Part shown: positions 14,854 through 35,696 of the stretch, in pieces
Numbering within the stretch: the stretch's first letter is position 1
Layout: each line of letters starts with the position of its first letter
Origin: Ruminococcus sp.
GTDB taxonomy: Bacteria > Bacillota > Clostridia > Oscillospirales > Ruminococcaceae
Assembly: GCA_017461395.1 (NCBI GenBank)
Contig: JAFTYF010000018.1
Span: forward strand, 1 to 36,122
Length of the DNA: 36,122 nt
Reading direction: 5' to 3'
Made by a program: the position numbers and the translations under genes
The notes under the pieces: model-generated
Databases searched by the model: none
The model's input: the letters and a program-made list of their open reading frames with translations, nothing else
Told to the model about the DNA's origin: nothing

Positions 14854-17064
14854 ATGCATAAATTTAATCCACTGGCAGCGACACTTGTTATCGCTGCAGC
14901 AACCGCAGCAGTAGTAGCTTACTGTTACTTTTTTCCAGAAAAAGCATTCGCAACAATTATTATATACATTGCAACAATAGTTTTTCTCCCGCTTCTGCTG
15001 TTCGTTCTGGCGTGGACTCAGAAAAACAAGACAAGCAATCTTATCAAACCTGAAGTTGCTGAAAATCTGAATACCGAAATGATTATCTGGAGCGATGATT
15101 TCTCATATGTCTTTATAAATAAGAAGCTGAGAATGCTTCTCGGAATTTCTGAAAACGATTCAAACAAAAAAGCAGCTGTATGGAAAGCTTTCGGAATAAA
15201 CGCTCCTGACAGCAAGGGCTTTGAAAAAATCGTCGGAAGCAAGTCATATGAATCTAAATTCAAAAATGCTGACGGCACTATCACCAGCATTGCATGGAGT
15301 ACCTCTCTTGTAAAAAAGACAAAGAAAAAATGTCTTTACCTGTCTACGGGTTTTAATCTCACTGAGATCAAAAAAATGAAGGTGAATCTTGCAAGTGCCA
15401 ATGACTTCTTCAATTCTTCTATGGAACTTGCAGAAATCGGTATCATAATAAGTACGGACAGAAAAAAATTTATCGCTTCGCCTGAGCTTATCCGTATGCT
15501 TGGACTGAAAAGCAACAGCATTTCTCTTAACGATTTCCGTGCACTTATTCATCCTAATGACAGAATTTCTTTTGACAGCGCTATAAAATCTGCAAGCTCT
15601 GAAATCAAAAGCATTGAAATGCGTATAAAATCAAACGACAATAATTTCCGTTGGTATTCCTACCGTTATAAGTCTATCAAGGGCACTGATAATACGCTTC
15701 CTCTCTTCGGCGGTGCACTTCTTGACAGCACTCAGGAACATGAAAAGGACGCTCTAATTGAACGTCTTGCTTATATTGATGAAGTAACGGAAATCGCTAA
15801 CAGAAACAAGCTCATGAACGCCGGTCAGGAAATCTACGACACCTGCCGTCTGCTTAATTACTCATACTGGATAATCGTCCTTGATATCGACAGATTTCAT
15901 ATCATCAACGACACCTGCGGATACGCAAACGGAAACTATGTACTCCGTAATTTTGCTCATATACTTTATAAATTTGTAACGCCAGGAGGACTTGCGGCAC
16001 GAATAAGCGGTGACAACTTCGCCCTTATCCTTCGTGACTACGGCAGCGATGAACTCCCTGTAAGAACTGTCAAATCTATTCAGGAGGAATTCGCAAAGCT
16101 CGCTGTTGACGAACTTGCATCCATAAATCTAAGCTGCTCTGCCGGATTTTCAAGAATGCCTGAGGACGGTAATTCTTTCCTTGACGTCATTGAACACGCA
16201 GAATTTGCTCTCAAATCAGGCAGCGTAAACCAGTCAAGCATTTATGGATATGAATCAAGTATGCATGATTCCATTATCTTCACTACCGAAATGGAAAAAG
16301 CACTTGTTCTCGCACTTAACAACAACGAATTTTCTCTCTTCTATCAGCCTAAGATTGATCTTTCTACAGGAAGACTCATGGGTGTTGAAGCACTCATCCG
16401 TTGGATCAGATCCGACGGAACTGTTGTTACTCCTGATGCATTTGTACCTATCGCTGAAAGAAGCCACCTCATCGGACGCATAACTGAATTCGTACTCAAC
16501 GAAGGATGCCGTCAGAACATTCTCTGGCAGAAAATGGGATTCCCGAAAATAGTTATGTCAGTCAATTTCACATCAACTGATTTCTATCAGGCTGATCTTA
16601 AAGAAAAAATCTTTGAAGCTCTCGTAAAATCCGGTCTTGAACCTCAGTGGCTTGAGATCGAGCTTACAGAAAGTCTCGCACTGAATGATATTGATTTTGC
16701 TGTCGCTCAGATGAAAAAACTTCGTGAGCTTGGTGTGAAACTTGCTATGGACGATTTCGGTACAGGATACTCTTCACTCAGCTATCTCCAAACGCTTCCA
16801 ATCACTCTCCTGAAGCTCGACAGATCGTTCATCACCGATATCGAACACGATAACATAGCATATGAAATAGTTGCATCAGTTATAAGAATAGCTAAATCCA
16901 AAAAGATCGAAACAATTGCCGAGGGCATTGAAAATAACGTACAGGAGTCAATTCTCCGAATGGCAGGATGCGATTACGCTCAGGGATTTCTCTATGGAAA
17001 ACCTATGCCGCCGGAAGAACTTCAGCGCTTTTTTGAGCAGAATCTCAGCAATTTCAAGACTTAA
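14854..17064 (+). CDS. Membrane-bound PAS-GGDEF(degenerate)-EAL c-di-GMP phosphodiesterase
   Basis: A 736-aa protein. Two N-terminal membrane helices (about 8-26 and 34-53) are followed by two PAS-like regions (about 75-170 and 185-295). The GGDEF domain (about 300-465) has SGDNF (385-389) in place of GGDEF and should not make c-di-GMP, though such domains may bind GTP. The EAL domain (about 480-735) keeps its key residues: Glu512 in EAL, the Asn in SVNFTSTDF, the Glu in ELTES, Asp-Asp in MDDFGTGYSS, the Lys in LKLDRSF, and the Glu in AEGIEN. It is therefore predicted to hydrolyse c-di-GMP to pGpG at the inner membrane face, probably tuned by the PAS sensors. RBS GGAGG. The phosphofructokinase gene follows after 14 nt in the same operon. 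Confidence 0.92.
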   Translation: MHKFNPLAATLVIAAATAAVVAYCYFFPEKAFATIIIYIATIVFLPLLLFVLAWTQKNKTSNLIKPEVAENLNTEMIIWSDDFSYVFINKKLRMLLGISENDSNKKAAVWKAFGINAPDSKGFEKIVGSKSYESKFKNADGTITSIAWSTSLVKKTKKKCLYLSTGFNLTEIKKMKVNLASANDFFNSSMELAEIGIIISTDRKKFIASPELIRMLGLKSNSISLNDFRALIHPNDRISFDSAIKSASSEIKSIEMRIKSNDNNFRWYSYRYKSIKGTDNTLPLFGGALLDSTQEHEKDALIERLAYIDEVTEIANRNKLMNAGQEIYDTCRLLNYSYWIIVLDIDRFHIINDTCGYANGNYVLRNFAHILYKFVTPGGLAARISGDNFALILRDYGSDELPVRTVKSIQEEFAKLAVDELASINLSCSAGFSRMPEDGNSFLDVIEHAEFALKSGSVNQSSIYGYESSMHDSIIFTTEMEKALVLALNNNEFSLFYQPKIDLSTGRLMGVEALIRWIRSDGTVVTPDAFVPIAERSHLIGRITEFVLNEGCRQNILWQKMGFPKIVMSVNFTSTDFYQADLKEKIFEALVKSGLEPQWLEIELTESLALNDIDFAVAQMKKLRELGVKLAMDDFGTGYSSLSYLQTLPITLLKLDRSFITDIEHDNIAYEIVASVIRIAKSKKIETIAEGIENNVQESILRMAGCDYAQGFLYGKPMPPEELQRFFEQNLSNFKT

Positions 17065-25400: not shown

Positions 25401-26483
25401 ATGGAAAACAAAAGACACACCATTGACGCCCTTATGGAACAGGGAAAGGCTAACGGAAAGCTGACGACCAAGGAAATTACAGATGCTCTCGAAGAAATGG
25501 ATTTCGATGTTGACCAGATCAATACCTTCTATGACAACTGTGAAACTCTTAACATCGAGATCGTTGAGGACATGAACATCGACGCAGATCTTAAAATTGG
25601 TCTTGATTCTACTCTCACCGATGATCTTGAGCTTGCTCTCTCTACAGAGGGTATCGCTATTGACGACCCTGTAAAAATCTACCTCAAGGAAATCGGACGT
25701 GTTCCGCTTCTTACAACGGAGGAGGAAATTGAACTTGCTCAGAGAATGGCAAAGGGCGATCCCTATGCAAAGAAAAGACTCTCTGAAGCTAACCTTCGTC
25801 TTGTTGTAAGTATAGCAAAAAAATATGTCGGCAGAGGAATGCAGTTCCTTGACCTCATTCAGGAAGGTAATCTTGGTCTTATCAAGGCTGTAGAGAAATT
25901 CGACTACACAAAAGGCTTCAAATTTTCTACCTACGCTACATGGTGGATCCGTCAGGCTATTACAAGAGCTATCGCTGATCAGGCAAGAACTATCCGTATT
26001 CCTGTTCACATGGTTGAGACTATCACAAAAGTTAAAAAAGTTTCCAGCCAGCTTCTCCATGAGAACGGTCATGACCCAAGCCCTGAAGAAATCGCTGAGA
26101 AGATCAATATGCCTGTTGACAAGGTTCGTGAGATCATGCGTGTTGCTCAGGATCCTGTTTCACTTGAAACTCCTATCGGCGAAGAAGAAGACAGCCACCT
26201 CGGTGACTTTATCCCCGACAACAACGCTCCAGCACCTGCAGAAGCCGCTTCACATACTCTGCTGAGAGAACAGCTCAACGAGGTACTTTCTACGCTTACA
26301 GACCGTGAAGCAAAGGTTCTTAAGCTCAGATTTGGTCTTGAAGACGGAAAATCACGCACTCTTGAAGAAGTCGGACAGCGTTTCGATGTAACTCGTGAAC
26401 GTATCCGTCAGATCGAGGCTAAGGCACTGAGAAAGCTTCGTCACCCCAGCAGAAGCAAAAAGGTCAAGGATTTCCTTGACTAA
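25401..26483 (+). CDS. rpoD: RNA polymerase primary sigma factor (sigma-70/sigma-A)
   Basis: A 360-aa primary sigma factor. Region 1.1 occupies the N terminus. Region 1.2 is [16 protein letters not shown]. Region 2 includes [30 protein letters not shown] and the -10 reading helix [13 protein letters not shown]. Region 3 follows, and region 4.2 has the helix-turn-helix [20 protein letters not shown] for the -35 element. This is the housekeeping sigma that would read the TTGACA/TATAAT promoters seen throughout the window. RBS AGGAGG. Last gene of the dgt-dnaG-rpoD group, ended by a terminator. Confidence 0.98.
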
Positions 26484-26682: not shown

Positions 26683-29421
26683 ATGAGTATTTTTAACCTC
26701 GAAAAAAGCCCGCCTGAGCTTAGCCGTGATTGGCTTATCTTTCAGCAGTTTGTTGGAAACATTGGTGCTTTTATGTATATTGCCAAAGACAAAACAGCTT
26801 ATCTTGATGACGAGGCCTGCCGTATGCTTTCATGTCCTACAAATAAGCTCAATGAATTTGAATTTTTCAATCTCCTCGAAAAAATATCGAAAAATCCTGT
26901 TGAAGGTCAAAAGCATATCTACAAATTTCAAGACAACATCGTTACACGCTATATTAAAATGAATATCTATGAAAGCAGCGATGAATGGCTCGGTTTTGTA
27001 CAGGATTTTTCAAGGCGCATAAACGAGATCAGCCGACCTGACCGTTTTGCTGAAATGGATCCCGTTACACGCCTGCTTTCTTACCCGTCCTTCTCAAACA
27101 AAATAAGAAAAATAATGCCTGAGCTTAATCACTGTTGTCTGGCAACCCTCTATGTGAACGGACTTGACAAACTCGGTTCATATCTGACTGTTGATAATGC
27201 CAACAGCTGTCTTACCTCTGTTGCTGAAACAATAAAGGGATTTTCTTCAGATAAAATCATTATTGGCTCAAAATCAAATTACGAAATATGTGCGTTCTTC
27301 TGCGATATTGACAAGAAGGAGATATATACAGTGCTCAACAGCATGGACGAAGCCGTCCAGAACTGCGTACTGACTGATGATTTCGGTGAGATTATTGATA
27401 TCTCCGACAAGAGCCGCCTGAGTCTCTCTATTGGATGTTCTTCGTTTCCCGAAGAAGCTTCTGATTTCAATATGCTTGTAAACTACTCGGAGTTTGCTCT
27501 CTACGAAGCCAGAACCGACCGCAGACGCGTTATAAACTGGTTCTCAGAGGAAAATTATATTCGTGAAAAAGATTCCTACAAGAACGCTCTGCTGTTTTCA
27601 AGGATAATCCGTGAAAATCTGCTTACATATCACTTCCAGCCTATCGTTGAAACAACTACCGGAGAAATCGTTGCTTATGAGGCTCTTATGAGAACTACCG
27701 GCGATATAAAAATGACTGCAACACAGATACTAAAAATCGCTGATACTCAGAATAACCTCTACGAGATCGAGAAACATACATTCTTCAATACGCTGAAAAT
27801 ACTTAGTGATAATCAGCAAGTTTTTGAAAATAAAAAACTATTCATAAACTGTCTGCCGAACAGCCTGCTTACCGATGATGACTACAACGAGCTTTACCTT
27901 ACATATGGTGAACTTATTGAAAAATGCATTATCGAGATAGTAGAAAACAGCGCTGCTACGTCTGATGATATTGAACTTCTTAAGAAACGATGCAGCTTTG
28001 CTCATGCTCAGCTCGCTATTGATGACTACGGTACAGGTTATGCAAACAGTTCAAATCTGCTTAGTTATTCCCCTGATTACATTAAGATCGACCGCTCACT
28101 TATCAGCGACATTCAGAACGATCTGAAAAAACAGCAGCTTGTTACATCTGTAATTGAATTCTGTCACGAAAATCAGCTGCAGTCACTTGCTGAGGGTGTT
28201 GAGACGCTTCAGGAACTCAAAACCGTTATTCGTCTTGGTGTTGATCTTGTTCAGGGATATGTTACTTCAAAACCCAAACCGCTCTTCCTTAACAGTATTT
28301 CATCTGAAATTAAGGATGAGATAATAAAAACTAATCTTGAAGTCCGTCCTGACGGAGCAAAAAAGATCTATGCTGCAAGAAATGATGCTGAAATTGATGT
28401 TCTTAAGCTCGCACTTGAAAAGTATACCGATATACACATCTATCAAAGCAAGCTTACGATTACCGGCGATCCTGAAAAACCTGTAACAATGAACATCTCC
28501 ATTATGGATAATCACAGCTGCGATCTCACACTGAAAAACGTAAACATAACCAGCGGAAACAGCAAGCCTACTATCTCTATCGGTGAATACGCCCGACTTT
28601 GCCTTAATATCGTAAAAAACAACAGACTTGGATATTCCGGCATTTATGTACCAATGGGCTCGCAGTTTGAGCTTATAGGAAAAGGCTCTCTCACAATCGA
28701 CGGAAATGCATCCGATGGAATCGGAATCGGAAATGATTATGATCATGGATATGGTGATATCACAATAAATACTACTGGTACGCTTGAAATCAACTCAAAC
28801 GGCAACGAATGTCTCTGTATCGGCGGCGGCTATAATGAAAACGAATCAGAAATAAATCTTATATCCGGAAAAATCAAGCTACTTATGCATACTCATAATG
28901 GTCTTGCTATTGGAAGCTATCACGGTGACGCTGATATCAGTATCTCTGACAGATGCAACCTTGATATAACTATGTCCGGTATCAAGGTTGCCGGAATCGG
29001 AAGTATCAGCGGTATTGCTTCGATAACCTCCGGTGCTGACATACATATAAGCTGCACCGGTGCTCAGGCTGCCGGAATAGGCTCGCTTGAAGAAGGCGAA
29101 GGAAGCATCTTTATCAGAAACGGTAAAGTAAACATGAAAATGCGATCTGCTAAGCATACCTGTATCGGTACGCTCGGCGGAAACATTAATACAAAAATTC
29201 AGGATTCTGAGATCATTATTGACTCTGAGGGCGATGATGTTACCGGTATCGGTGACGCTGCCGGCTCTGGAAATGTCTCTATTCTTGATTCTGCTGTAAC
29301 CATGAGTATTCTTGCCTCTAATCCTAAGGATATCGGCACCTCTGACGGCGATGTCATAATCAGGGGCGGAGCAGTGAATTCTCTTGTAAACAACAGAAGA
29401 ATCCCGCACAACAGCATTTAA
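26683..29421 (+). CDS. PAS-like / degenerate GGDEF / EAL protein with a C-terminal beta-helix-like repeat domain
   Basis: A 912-aa protein with no signal peptide or membrane helix, so apparently cytoplasmic. Residues about 15-110 look PAS-like. A degenerate GGDEF domain (about 119-290) has KSNYE (197-201) at the signature. The EAL domain (about 303-530) keeps Glu333 in EAL, the Asn in INCLPN, the Glu in EIVEN, Asp-Asp in IDDYGTGY, the Lys in IKIDRS and the Glu in AEGVE, so c-di-GMP hydrolysis is plausible. From about 600 to the end the sequence is beta-strand rich with no catalytic motif. An Ile-Gly pair recurs at 682, 713, 743, 772, 799, 828, 856 and 884, a period of 27-31 residues typical of a parallel beta-helix or solenoid. 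GIG-type repeats are otherwise familiar from extracellular gut-bacterial proteins. ychF follows after 23 nt, probably in the same operon. Confidence 0.88.
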   Translation: MSIFNLEKSPPELSRDWLIFQQFVGNIGAFMYIAKDKTAYLDDEACRMLSCPTNKLNEFEFFNLLEKISKNPVEGQKHIYKFQDNIVTRYIKMNIYESSDEWLGFVQDFSRRINEISRPDRFAEMDPVTRLLSYPSFSNKIRKIMPELNHCCLATLYVNGLDKLGSYLTVDNANSCLTSVAETIKGFSSDKIIIGSKSNYEICAFFCDIDKKEIYTVLNSMDEAVQNCVLTDDFGEIIDISDKSRLSLSIGCSSFPEEASDFNMLVNYSEFALYEARTDRRRVINWFSEENYIREKDSYKNALLFSRIIRENLLTYHFQPIVETTTGEIVAYEALMRTTGDIKMTATQILKIADTQNNLYEIEKHTFFNTLKILSDNQQVFENKKLFINCLPNSLLTDDDYNELYLTYGELIEKCIIEIVENSAATSDDIELLKKRCSFAHAQLAIDDYGTGYANSSNLLSYSPDYIKIDRSLISDIQNDLKKQQLVTSVIEFCHENQLQSLAEGVETLQELKTVIRLGVDLVQGYVTSKPKPLFLNSISSEIKDEIIKTNLEVRPDGAKKIYAARNDAEIDVLKLALEKYTDIHIYQSKLTITGDPEKPVTMNISIMDNHSCDLTLKNVNITSGNSKPTISIGEYARLCLNIVKNNRLGYSGIYVPMGSQFELIGKGSLTIDGNASDGIGIGNDYDHGYGDITINTTGTLEINSNGNECLCIGGGYNENESEINLISGKIKLLMHTHNGLAIGSYHGDADISISDRCNLDITMSGIKVAGIGSISGIASITSGADIHISCTGAQAAGIGSLEEGEGSIFIRNGKVNMKMRSAKHTCIGTLGGNINTKIQDSEIIIDSEGDDVTGIGDAAGSGNVSILDSAVTMSILASNPKDIGTSDGDVIIRGGAVNSLVNNRRIPHNSI

Positions 29422-29444: not shown

Positions 29445-30539
29445 ATGAAACTTGGTATGGTTGGTCTGCCTAATGTAGGCAAAAGCACTCTCTTTAACGC
29501 ACTTACAAACGCAGGAGCAGAATCTGCAAACTATCCATTCTGCACTATTGAAAAAAATGTCGGAATCGTTTCTGTTCCCGATGAGCGTCTTGATAAACTT
29601 GCAGAAATGTATGATCCTGATAAATTTACTCCGGCAACACTTGAATTCGTTGATATTGCTGGTCTTGTAAAGGGTGCATCAAAGGGCGAAGGTCTCGGAA
29701 ATAAATTCCTTGCGGATATCCGTGAAGTAGACGCTATCGTTCATGTTGTAAGATGCTTTGAGGATACCAACATAATCCATGTTGACGGATCTATCAATCC
29801 TCTCCGTGACATTGAAACAATTAATTTAGAACTTATTTTCTCTGATATAGAAATGATTGATCGCCGTATCGACCGTGCTAAAAAAGCTGTAAAAGGCGAC
29901 AAAAAGTATCTCATCGAAATAGACTTCCTTGAGCGTCTTAAAGCACATCTCGAAAACGGAAAATCAGCAAGAGCATTCGATTTCACTGACGACGAAAGAG
30001 AACTTATAAAATCTACTCCCCTCCTCTCGGCTAAGCCTGTCATCTATGCAGCAAATCTCTGTGAGGATGACTTCGTTAACAATATCGAAACAAACGAAAA
30101 TTATCTTAATGTAAAAGCACTCGCTGAGGAAGAACATTCTGCCGTTCTTCCAATCTGTGCCCAGATCGAAGCTGAAATTTCTGATATGGAAGATGAGGAA
30201 AAGGCTATGTTCCTCGGTGAACTTGGTCTTGAAGTATCAGGTCTTAACCGTATTATCAAGGAAGGCTATTCACTTCTCGGACTTATTTCATATCTGACTG
30301 CCGGCAAGCAGGAAGTCCGTGCATGGACTATCACAAGAGGTACAAAAGCTCCGCAGGCTGCCGGAAAAATACATACTGACTTTGAAAAGGGCTTTATCCG
30401 TGCTGAGGTAATCTCTTTTGACGATCTTATGGCTTGCGGAACTATGGCTGCCGCTAAGGAAAAAGGTCTTGTTCGTCTTGAAGGCAAGGAATATGTAATG
30501 CAGGACGGCGATATTGTCCTTTTCCGCTTCAATGTCTGA
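29445..30539 (+). CDS. ychF: Redox-regulated ATPase/GTPase YchF (Obg family)
   Basis: A 364-aa P-loop protein of the Obg/YchF family. G1 is GLPNVGKST (7-15), switch II contains DIAGLVKGASKGEGLGN, and the C-terminal TGS-like domain (about 280-364) ends with the usual EGKEYVMQDGDIVLFRFNV. In this family the G4 motif is altered so that ATP is preferred. It binds ribosomes and is tied to stress responses. The RBS AAAGGA is rather far from the ATG. Its last 8 bases overlap the start of ttcA. Confidence 0.96.
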   Translation: MKLGMVGLPNVGKSTLFNALTNAGAESANYPFCTIEKNVGIVSVPDERLDKLAEMYDPDKFTPATLEFVDIAGLVKGASKGEGLGNKFLADIREVDAIVHVVRCFEDTNIIHVDGSINPLRDIETINLELIFSDIEMIDRRIDRAKKAVKGDKKYLIEIDFLERLKAHLENGKSARAFDFTDDERELIKSTPLLSAKPVIYAANLCEDDFVNNIETNENYLNVKALAEEEHSAVLPICAQIEAEISDMEDEEKAMFLGELGLEVSGLNRIIKEGYSLLGLISYLTAGKQEVRAWTITRGTKAPQAAGKIHTDFEKGFIRAEVISFDDLMACGTMAAAKEKGLVRLEGKEYVMQDGDIVLFRFNV

Positions 30540-32383: not shown

Positions 32384-33145
32384 ATGAGATATAATAATGA
32401 TATTACGGAAGATACCACAGGCGTTATCTGTGGAAGAAATCCCGTCATTGAGGCGCTTAAATCCGGAGTTCCTCAGCTTGACGCTATTTACATAAACGGA
32501 TCTGGCGGAAGTCTTAATCTTATCCGCAGTCTAGCAAAGGAAAAGAATGTCGTCGTAAAAGACGCACAGGACCAGAAGCTTAATCAGCTTTCCGGCGGTG
32601 CCTCTCATCAGGGAGTTGTTGCATTCGGTGCCTGCGGTGAGTACGTTTCTGTTGAGGATATTCTTGAAATTTCACGCAATAAAGGAACTAAACCATTCAT
32701 TATCATTTGCGATGAAATTGAGGATCCACATAATCTCGGCGCTATAATCCGTACTGCTGAGACATCAGGTGCAGACGGAATTATAATCCCGAAACGCCGC
32801 AGTGCTTCGCTGAACGCTACTGTATTCAAAACTTCAGCCGGTGCTGCAAGCTATGTTCCTGTGGCAAGAGTATCAAACCTTGCTTCCTGCATTGATATGC
32901 TCAAGGAAAACGGTGTATGGATATACGGTACTGACGCTTCCGGTACTGATTACGATAAAACTGATTTCACTGGAAGCTGTGCCCTTGTTATCGGTTCAGA
33001 GGGCTTCGGCATAAGCCGGCTTATTCAGAAAAAGTGCGATTTTATGATAAAACTTCCGATGCTTGGCAAAATCAATTCGCTTAACGCCTCAGTTGCTGCC
33101 GGAATCTTCATGTACGAGGTTCTCAGACAGCGCAGGTCATTATAA
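32384..33145 (+). CDS. rlmB: 23S rRNA 2'-O-methyltransferase of the TrmH/SpoU family (RlmB-like)
   Basis: A 253-aa SPOUT methyltransferase. The N-terminal RNA-binding substrate domain begins ICGRNPVIEAL, typical of RlmB. The knotted catalytic domain shows motif 1 DPHNLGAIIRTAE, motif 2 VIGSEGFGIS and motif 3 NSLNASVAAGIFMYE. RlmB methylates the ribose of G2251 in the 23S rRNA P loop, while relatives methylate other positions. AAGGAAA precedes the ATG. The large membrane protein gene follows after 10 nt, so they are probably cotranscribed. Confidence 0.93.
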   Translation: MRYNNDITEDTTGVICGRNPVIEALKSGVPQLDAIYINGSGGSLNLIRSLAKEKNVVVKDAQDQKLNQLSGGASHQGVVAFGACGEYVSVEDILEISRNKGTKPFIIICDEIEDPHNLGAIIRTAETSGADGIIIPKRRSASLNATVFKTSAGAASYVPVARVSNLASCIDMLKENGVWIYGTDASGTDYDKTDFTGSCALVIGSEGFGISRLIQKKCDFMIKLPMLGKINSLNASVAAGIFMYEVLRQRRSL

Positions 33146-33155
33146 GGAGATTGCT

Positions 33156-35696
33156 ATGCCGGATCAGAAATTATCTCTGGAGGATATTCTGAACGAGTAT
33201 TCTCCGCAAAATGAAAATTCACATACAAGCGTCAGACGTATTGACGCTCAAAAAATTCTTAATTCCACTGTTAATTCCAATTCGGATCCAGTAAAGACAA
33301 AGCCGAAATCTCCTCCTGCTTCTCACAAAAAGACAGATCTTTTTGAAAATGCTCTCCGGCAGTCAGAACCAGCGGATGAGTTTAAGCCGGCTGATCTTTC
33401 AAAAAATCGTGTTTCTGTCGTAGGAAACAGGAACGTAGGAAATATACGTTCAATAAGCTCTCACAAAAGCGACTCTTCCAATACCGGAACAGTTCCGGTA
33501 GCAAACATTCCGCAGAATGCCGCTCCGAAAATCAGACGCATGAATGATTCTACAAGAGCTAAGGAGCTTGAAGAGCTTAAAAAGAACGGTAAAAAGAAAA
33601 ATAAACACAAATCCAAATACACATACAGCACTGAATCACCAGAAGGAGAATATATGTATTCTCCGCCGAACTTCAGAAAAAAGAAACGTACCCGTGCACA
33701 AATCGAGGCTGAAAATGACAGTCCGGAAGGAAAGAAGTCAATTACGGATATTGTTCCCTCCCCTGCTGCCGTTGAAGCAGCAAAGCCAGTTCAGCCTGCA
33801 CCAAGAGCAGAGATGACAAGCATCAACCTCAGTGAAGCTGCTCCGATTGATGCAAGTGAGCTTGATGTTCACATTACTCAGGAGCATGAGGAATATCTTT
33901 CGGTAAATTCAAAGAAAAAACGTACCAAGCGTATCGTTGATTTCAATTACTACGGTGATGTTGAAGATGTCGGCCGAGATATCTATGAACTGAAAAGTAC
34001 TATCGGTGTTCGTGTTCTTATACTCACCATGACATCCCTGCTGAGCTTATTCATTACACTGGCGAATCAGTTCGGGCTGTCCGTATTAAGCATCTTTGAC
34101 AGCACAAATACTAAAATTTATCTGATTGTGCATCTGATTCTCGGAATAATTTCTGTTATTTCGTCCATGCCGGTAATTACAAAGGGAATAAAAAAGCTGA
34201 TAACTTTTGCTGCTGATACCGATTCAATGACCGCAATAACAGCTATCTCATGTATTATAGCACTTATTCCGGCATTACTTTATCCTGATATAGCTGCAAG
34301 GAATCACTTCAATATCTATATGCCAATAGGTATCATGGCACTTCTTATAAACGCTATGGGCAAGATGCTTATCATTAAGAGAGCTGCACGAAATTTTAAA
34401 TTTGTATCAAAAAATTTTGACCGTCATGGTGTCGTATACGTCACAGATGAGGAACGTGCTGAACGCCTTACACGAGGAACTCTCGGAGATTTTCCGATAC
34501 TTGCTTCAACACGAAAAACCGACTTCCTCACCGATTTTCTGCGCTATACCTACTCATCGGATATGGCAGACAGTTATTGTCACAGAGCTGCTCCGCTATG
34601 TATGATATTTTCAGTTATAGTTGCCTTTTTCCTTACATATGCGACAAAGGGAGGAATTAGCTCAGCAGACTCAGTTGTTTTCGGATTTTCAATTTTCAGT
34701 ATGCTGATATCTGCTTCCTCTTGTATCGCAATGCCGTTTACCGTTAATATTCCGCTTGAAAAAACAGCATCTGCCGTCTTTCCAGGTAAGGGAATCATGC
34801 TTGGCTATCAGAGTGTCGATGACTTCTATGATACAAATTCAATTCTTGTTGATGCAAATTCACTTTTCCCTGACGGAAGCATCAAGCTTGCCGGAATCAA
34901 AGTATTCTCAAATACAAAGATAGATGAAGCTCTTCTTGAAGCTGCAAGTCTTACATATTATGCCGGAAGCATCATGCGTTCGCTTTTCAAGGATGTTGCA
35001 TACGGCAGAGAAGATACACTTTATCCAATTGAAAACTTCTCCTATGAAGAATCTCTCGGAATCTGCGGATGGATAAACAATAAACGTCTGCTTTTCGGCA
35101 ACCGTGAGCTTATGACAAGCCATAATATCGAGGGAATCCCTACAAGAACCAAAGAAGCAGAATTAACTTCTTCCGGACAGGAAGCACTGTATCTCTCCAT
35201 TTCAGGTAATCTTGCTGCAATGTTTATTGTTGATATCAGCGCAAACAAGCATGTAAAAAAATGGGCTAAGCGTCTCTGTAAGAGCAAGATCTGCCTTATA
35301 CTCAAAAGCGTTGATCCATGCATATCTCTTAAGAAGATCAGCAATCTCTTTGGTGTGCCGGAGGAAATGGTCCGAATCCTTCCAAAACGGCTTCACGAAG
35401 ATTTTGATGCAGAATCCAAAAAGACTGTCCGTCTGAGTGCTTCAATGGCTACAACAGGAAAATTCTCATCACTTGCACAGCTTCTCATTGGTACAAAAAT
35501 TGTTCACAATTCAGCGATTATTGGACTTATCGTCCAGACCGTTTCGATATTTCTCGGCTTTGGTCTTGCAATGCTGATGATTCTTTCAGGAGCCTTTGAG
35601 ACAAACTACATCTATATATCGGCTACGGCACTTATAATCTACAATGCAGTCTGCTCATTACTGACTTGTGCAGCTGTAAGCTTAAAAAAACTCTGA
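33156..35696 (+). CDS. Degenerate P1B-type ATPase-like membrane protein (predicted pseudoenzyme)
   Basis: An 846-aa protein (ATG at 33156, seven bases after AAGGAG; an in-frame upstream ATG lies inside rlmB). Residues 1 to about 280 are polar, Lys/Pro-rich and probably disordered. Then come four membrane helices, a short cytoplasmic loop (about 410-480), two helices, a large cytoplasmic domain and two final helices, which is the P1B ATPase plan. Several stretches align with heavy-metal ATPases: SSCIAMP where CPC lies, KGIMLGYQSVDD for the VKGGEALE segment, DANSLFP (Asp566) where DKTGTLT lies, FGNRELM of the N domain, and KSVDPCIS for TGDN. The SSC-to-Asp566 distance of 43 residues is that of real CPx ATPases. 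CPC, TGE, DKTGT, HP and GDGxND are all lost. It should not pump ions by the usual cycle. Its role is unknown. Confidence 0.8.
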   Translation: MPDQKLSLEDILNEYSPQNENSHTSVRRIDAQKILNSTVNSNSDPVKTKPKSPPASHKKTDLFENALRQSEPADEFKPADLSKNRVSVVGNRNVGNIRSISSHKSDSSNTGTVPVANIPQNAAPKIRRMNDSTRAKELEELKKNGKKKNKHKSKYTYSTESPEGEYMYSPPNFRKKKRTRAQIEAENDSPEGKKSITDIVPSPAAVEAAKPVQPAPRAEMTSINLSEAAPIDASELDVHITQEHEEYLSVNSKKKRTKRIVDFNYYGDVEDVGRDIYELKSTIGVRVLILTMTSLLSLFITLANQFGLSVLSIFDSTNTKIYLIVHLILGIISVISSMPVITKGIKKLITFAADTDSMTAITAISCIIALIPALLYPDIAARNHFNIYMPIGIMALLINAMGKMLIIKRAARNFKFVSKNFDRHGVVYVTDEERAERLTRGTLGDFPILASTRKTDFLTDFLRYTYSSDMADSYCHRAAPLCMIFSVIVAFFLTYATKGGISSADSVVFGFSIFSMLISASSCIAMPFTVNIPLEKTASAVFPGKGIMLGYQSVDDFYDTNSILVDANSLFPDGSIKLAGIKVFSNTKIDEALLEAASLTYYAGSIMRSLFKDVAYGREDTLYPIENFSYEESLGICGWINNKRLLFGNRELMTSHNIEGIPTRTKEAELTSSGQEALYLSISGNLAAMFIVDISANKHVKKWAKRLCKSKICLILKSVDPCISLKKISNLFGVPEEMVRILPKRLHEDFDAESKKTVRLSASMATTGKFSSLAQLLIGTKIVHNSAIIGLIVQTVSIFLGFGLAMLMILSGAFETNYIYISATALIIYNAVCSLLTCAAVSLKKL

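Follow-up and report, generated by a model that had tools for sequence, protein, structure and literature searches.

A predicted cytosolic EAL phosphodiesterase with a beta-helix tail in Ruminococcus and related genera

Gut and rumen Ruminococcus encode a predicted intracellular c-di-GMP-degrading enzyme that carries a tail of a type best known from secreted sugar-binding or adhesive proteins. The gene described here occupies positions 26683..29421 (+) of the window, by which we mean the whole 36,122-nucleotide stretch of Ruminococcus sp. DNA that was analysed, and it is an open frame of 912 aa with an ATG start and no internal stop in its translation. The reading that we favour, although we would place it a little below an even chance, is that the protein is a cytosolic c-di-GMP phosphodiesterase whose beta-helix docks to a protein partner, leading to local removal of c-di-GMP. 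The author of an earlier note on this DNA knew of no described protein with this order of domains, and no protein combining EAL or GGDEF with a beta-helix was apparent in the open-access papers searched. The parts are of known kinds; as far as we have seen, what is new is their combination, the clustering of the fused EAL domains in one clade and the intracellular use of an adhesin-type helix.

The window gene is preceded by a sigma-70 gene (25401-26483) and followed, 23 bp downstream, by ychF (29445..30539, +; PF06071 and PF01926), which we regard as genomic context outside the system. Wherever 800 bases or more are available downstream, ychF is the adjacent gene (76 of 76 loci), and a sigma factor lies upstream in 47 of the 68 loci with as long a stretch on the other side. 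A second c-di-GMP gene of the window, about 10 kb upstream (14854-17064), encodes a PAS-GGDEF-EAL protein whose EAL domain is of the canonical type, and several relatives also show another EAL match on the same contig, at a distance of about 10-13 kb from their EAL-helix gene (for example G011:C56, G031:C11, G019:C6). The window further holds an 877-aa frame with a TTG start (33063-35696), for which no Pfam family was found at E 0.1.

The N-terminal part of the window protein consists of two alpha/beta segments. The first (residues ~14-110; 26722..27012, +) has the alpha/beta order of a PAS-like domain in the full-length AlphaFold2 model; the PAS name is an inference here, because no Pfam family matches these residues. 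The second (residues ~121-281; 27043..27525, +) is a degenerate GGDEF-like domain, recognised by its alpha/beta fold in the same model, by the NCBIfam GGDEF-EAL model GepA, which aligns from residue 125, and by conservation of the site, where SKSNYE stands in place of the GGDEF motif and S198 and E201 are invariant in 75/75 aligned homologues. Since the GG[D/E]EF motif is absent, membership of the diguanylate cyclases was rejected for the window protein, in which Pfam likewise finds no GGDEF match. In the full-length model, the orientation of the domains to one another cannot be relied on (pTM 0.46).

The sole Pfam match of the window protein is its EAL phosphodiesterase domain (PF00563, residues 307-531; 27601..28275, +; E 1.4e-46, 159.2 bits against a cut-off of 31.3). 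E333, E418, D447, K468, E504 and Q524 are invariant in 75/75 aligned homologues (window protein counted), and N389 and D448 are kept in 74/75; we take all of these to be metal or catalytic positions of active EAL enzymes. When paralogues are included, the 13 EAL positions inspected in 172 distinct fused proteins have at most 5 gaps each, and the substitutions are few: R337 to K (1), N389 to S (1), D470 to G (1), E421 to Q (2) or D (1), and D448 to N (1) or G (1). The active site, which the earlier note had described as intact-looking, is thus complete in the window protein and conserved across its homologues. As these residues are kept, the EAL-beta-helix enzyme is expected to be active, and the window protein is predicted from its sequence to hydrolyse c-di-GMP. 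In their PF00563 match and catalytic residues, the fused proteins resemble canonical EAL phosphodiesterases such as BlrP1, RocR and DosP, but their EAL domains form a separate clade in a quick tree and continue into a beta-helix.

In the model, the EAL domain is followed by a short alpha helix (residues 541-553; 28303..28341, +) bordered by low-confidence joints, and then by a right-handed parallel beta-helix (residues ~560-907; 28360..29403, +) whose main part carries Ile-Gly pairs at intervals of 26-32 residues. The eight Ile-Gly positions on which the earlier note had based its repeat (682, 713, 743, 772, 799, 828, 856, and 884) are all present, and three more (633, 665, and 680) bring the total to 11 for residues 540-912. 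This number alone is unremarkable for the composition of the segment, as 1101 of 20000 shuffles contain as many pairs; what stands out is the spacing, since 0 of 20000 shuffles place eight pairs in a row at intervals of 26-32 residues, and the best gave a chain of six, once. Chance repeats are therefore ruled out by spacing, although not by number. The change in composition at residue 539 is also marked, Gly rising from 3.3% before it to 12.6% beyond it and Ile from 9.1% to 14.5%. Structure prediction gave a confident solenoid, as had been proposed for a repeat region of about 300 residues; the solenoid stands, but it starts earlier than had been thought, from about residue 560. Its parallel strands align to solved right-handed parallel beta-helices over most of the domain. 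Foldseek alone gave no match at E 0.001 or less, so the fold assignment rests on the model together with a VIA-align comparison, which considers only candidates proposed by Foldseek itself; the 50 matches listed do not include 4peu.

Although helices of this kind are mostly met in secreted proteins, the window protein appears to be cytosolic. Neither a signal peptide nor a membrane helix is visible in it (the highest 19-residue Kyte-Doolittle mean is 1.22), in agreement with the earlier note, and the domains that accompany EAL-helix units in its relatives, namely LacI-type sensors, GGDEF domains and an N-terminal membrane anchor, point the same way. The anchor, recognised by eye in one architecture, would in the usual topology leave the rest of the protein inside. 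We attribute a cytosolic location to the protein because of these partner domains and the lack of a visible export signal, the latter being also the ground on which an extracellular location was rejected.

The fusion is widespread. In 36 genomes of the same genus, including that of the window, 33 matches cover at least residues 1-846, and the other three are cut at contig ends: those of G003 and G027 include the helix, while that of G004 spans only residues 1-266. Stops flagged within the matches of G014, G020, and G028 lie at the extreme end of the frame, as judged from ORF ends. In a collection of named relatives, for which the best 80 of 106 candidates encoding a relative were kept, the fusion is full-length in 74 of the 80 loci, and the other six are cut by contig ends. 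These loci include R. flavefaciens FD-1, ATCC 19208, MA2007, ND2009, Y1, YAD2003, YL228, SAb67, and XPD3002. The expectation that several Ruminococcus genomes would share the fusion is thus borne out, as it is present in many Ruminococcus and related genomes. That the fusion might be artefactual, through misassembly or the loss of a stop codon, has a negligible probability, given full-length copies in so many separate named loci, some of them from cultured R. flavefaciens strains. Neither such an origin nor a fold other than a solenoid, the two outcomes that the earlier note had set against its own reading, was found.

Beyond the genus, a helix profile (A1, built from 25 sequences) matches 63 of 297 genomes in the window's family, 61 of them strongly and in 21 genera. 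Matches are found in 18 of 295 genomes at the level of the order, the 12 strong ones being all in the window's own family and the six weak ones in other families, and in only four of 319 genomes at the level of the phylum: the window's own, G822 (two strong copies), and two weak ones. The G822 copies (L292 and L295) are LacI-EAL-beta-helix proteins in another family of the same class, and were probably acquired by lateral transfer. The helix is seldom separated from the enzyme: of the 184 distinct ORFs with a helix match, 173 also encode, in frame, an EAL domain ahead of it. Seven of the other 11 ORFs are contig-cut or broken (L036, L045, L075, L190, L201 end, L225, and L226), and the remaining four are of the secreted repeat type (L063, L066, L176, and L182), with a signal peptide visible by eye in L063, L176, and L182, L066 being cut. 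Further weak matches concern L064, L065, L067, L179, and L180. A flagellin-like 858-aa ORF (L293, identified by eye) also gave a weak match (E 1.6e-5), which was not recovered at E 1e-3 in a later search.

In a quick maximum-likelihood tree built from 146 EAL domains, the 99 fused ones all fall within one group of 103 (SH-aLRT 100). The fused/non-fused label changes three times on this tree, versus a mean of 39.8 after shuffling, and none of 500 shuffles gave a value as low. The sample drew on 7 of the 80 named loci and retained, after thinning, 99 of 134 fused EAL domains; the 40 extra non-fused EAL domains were chosen from the best PF00563 scorers, one for each genome, a choice that may overstate how far they lie from the fused clade. 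The four other members of the group are the broken fused copies L036 and L045 and two helix-less proteins, L046 and L047 (about 1020 aa, L046 being GGDEF-EAL by Pfam), whose EAL domains fall inside the fused clade and which may represent either a pre-fusion lineage or losses.

Could the helix be a relic, or a passive spacer that does nothing by itself? Broken copies do exist: two paralogues are broken between EAL and helix, L036 by an in-frame stop and L045 by a frame shift, and L225 is reduced to a helix remnant. In addition, 8 EAL-bearing genomes in 7 fusion-bearing genera have no fusion, so that, with L046 and L047, the helix can evidently be absent. Among orthologues, however, conservation of the helix comes close to that of the full protein, with a mean column identity of 80% (80 rows) versus 83% (75 rows), and we consider a relic or spacer very unlikely.

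What precedes the EAL domain varies widely between paralogues, while what follows it hardly does. The window-type N-terminus combines PAS-like and degenerate GGDEF domains; that of L032 is a LacI-type periplasmic-binding fold with no DNA-binding Pfam domain, those of L184-L186 are LacI plus GGDEF, that of L037 is short, and that of L187 shows two hydrophobic stretches (by eye) plus GGDEF. Between EAL Gln524 and beta-helix Tyr563, on the other hand, 169 of 172 fused proteins have 38-39 residues. With variable sensors and a constant EAL-helix unit, the helix more probably serves output, docking or structure than acts as the main input sensor. The earlier note had proposed that the repeat may be a binding platform or an intracellular sugar sensor, and its interpretation is supported in part, namely for the fold, the recurrence of the fusion and the cytosolic location. 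LacI-type paralogues adjoin a LacI-GGDEF cyclase in four of nine loci and a GGDEF-EAL protein in three of nine (three of these seven neighbours being confirmed by Pfam). In L033, L039, L040, and L041, the LacI-EAL-beta-helix gene lies directly beside the LacI-GGDEF cyclase gene, and the two may possibly form an opposing enzyme pair with like sensors.

Residue conservation within the helix differs between the family and the orthologues. The helix residues that are invariant across all paralogues are mostly Gly and aliphatic; judging from their nature, they are probably structural, and no family-wide binding site is therefore evident. Another 45 polar or aromatic residues, including N610, H611, Y636, Y651, Y655, Q661, D685, H688, and Y690, are invariant in orthologues but not family-wide, and 33 of the 45 lie before residue 700, that is, in the N-terminal 43% of the helix region. 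Such orthologue-specific polar residues in the N-terminal part fit partners that differ between paralogues. Under the docking reading, the variable N-terminal domains would set EAL activity, with PAS-like and dead GGDEF domains playing this role in the window protein and LacI-type sugar sensors, GGDEF domains or a membrane anchor in the paralogues, and the beta-helix would act as a fixed arm by which the enzyme docks to its protein partner, c-di-GMP being removed locally.

The same observations bear on a different possibility, namely that the helix is a structural or assembly module that oligomerises or polymerises the enzyme with no separate partner. Cytoplasmic beta-helix polymers do exist, as bactofilins form them, and both the near-fixed EAL-helix spacing and the predominance of Gly and aliphatic residues among family-wide conserved positions would suit such a module. 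Bactofilins, however, are small polymer-forming proteins that share with the window protein a cytoplasmic beta-helix; no Pfam family matches the window helix, and no bactofilin family was found at E 0.1. Besides, extra domains on one end would presumably crowd an end-to-end polymer, and polar positions of the N-terminal coils are conserved in orthologues beyond what a passive part needs. We thus regard an assembly module as unlikely.

The relatives of the helix outside EAL proteins point to its origin. The helix profile matches L182, a protein with InlB B-repeats (E 3e-21), L063 (E 4e-10), and L176-L178 (E 1e-7 to 1e-6), and the relatives without EAL that were examined belong to the GIG-repeat and Cthe_2159 types, most of them being visibly secreted. 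Secreted GIG-repeat/InlB B-repeat proteins of Bacillota share with the helix an N-L-GI-VP...L-I-G-GSL...GIG stretch (by eye), but they differ from the fused proteins by their visible signal peptide (again by eye) and by the absence of EAL. Cthe_2159-type relatives, which include members from the same bacterial family, also have a beta-helix (PF14262; PDB 4peu, 4phb). The members found are secreted and carry dockerin or SLH domains, L176 being a dockerin protein for which PF14262 was confirmed, whereas the window helix has no PF14262 match and direct membership of the family was rejected for the window protein; paralogue L032 reaches only E 0.44 (10.2 bits, below the cut-off of 25.8). Given significant matches to secreted relatives, the intracellular helix most likely descends, as far as profile comparison can tell, from a secreted sugar-binding or adhesive helix. 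The docking reading likewise has the helix probably recruited from a secreted carbohydrate-binding or adhesin type and now at work inside the cell.

Such a probable ancestry raises the question of whether the helix still reads sugars, acting as an intracellular glycan sensor. Its ligand would be a polymer of the cytosol or an oligosaccharide taken up by the cell (glycogen, cellodextrin or a cell-wall precursor), and binding would switch the EAL domain on or off. Secreted relatives include Cthe_2159-type proteins, which are reported to bind cellulose and polygalacturonate (PMC6712302), paralogues have LacI-type sugar-sensor folds, and the concentration of orthologue-invariant polar and aromatic residues before residue 700 would suit a binding site. 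Yet the window helix has no Trp and only 0.5% Phe, its set of polar residues is not kept in paralogues, and the match between the helix profile and the solved Cthe_2159 structure 4peu is not significant (E 0.2). Paralogues, moreover, already possess a separate sensor. A glycan sensor is in our view also unlikely.

If the helix docks to a protein, as we favour, the best candidate site would be the motor of the type IV pilus, which has an MshEN-type domain and belongs to the machinery that rumen ruminococci use to hold on to plant fibre. In the window genome there are 9 GGDEF and 4 EAL matches. Among 22 genomes of the genus, PilZ was found in none and the c-di-GMP-I riboswitch in one, while MshEN was found in 19; c-di-GMP-II riboswitches were detected in none of 36 genomes, a search in which the control also gave none. 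The genus genomes searched thus have GGDEF proteins, yet almost none of the c-di-GMP receptors that were looked for, except one MshEN protein in 19 of 22 genomes, and further receptors may exist. MshEN is present in 59 of 61 fusion genomes (G582 and G597 lack it) versus 49 of 130 other genomes of the family with EAL at E below 1e-20, and in 21 of 21 genera with the fusion versus 30 of 71 without, both comparisons being uncorrected for phylogeny. The association weakens with EAL number (p 0.0002, 0.0014, and 0.028 in three strata). Compared with the MshEN consensus of PMC5013675, PilB of the window genome (L251) fits motif I closely, with Ile replacing Leu of RLG, but its motif II has Lys-Phe for Arg-Leu and Asn for Gln; owing to this departure, c-di-GMP binding by this PilB is doubtful on sequence grounds.

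A precedent for such a link is FimX of Pseudomonas, a GGDEF-EAL protein that acts with the pilus motor and whose degenerate EAL binds c-di-GMP but does not hydrolyse it. The window protein resembles FimX in having a degenerate GGDEF followed by EAL, and its link to the pilus motor is one of co-occurrence. Unlike FimX, which is a receptor without a beta-helix, it combines a helix with an intact EAL site, and the intact site led us to reject it as a FimX-like pilus regulator with degenerate EAL. In the fullest scenario, a secreted adhesin or sugar-binding helix would have been converted once, within a bacterial family, into an intracellular docking or glycan-reading arm of c-di-GMP breakdown; the EAL-helix unit would then have been combined with varied sensors and, in fibre-degrading ruminococci, would control locally the type IV pilus that holds cellulose. 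We advance this whole chain of events as doubtful.

As far as the open-access papers searched show, the domain pairing is undescribed, and it is found in 21 sampled genera of one family. How single c-di-GMP enzymes come to act locally, and not on the pool of the whole cell, is an open question, which a phosphodiesterase with a solenoid arm makes directly testable. R. albus binds cellulose through its type IV pili (PMC13234629, PMC6916266), and R. flavefaciens expresses such pili (PMC13234629). A docking arm of this kind would tie c-di-GMP to fibre-degrading ruminococci, in which pili bind cellulose and the usual receptors were largely not found.
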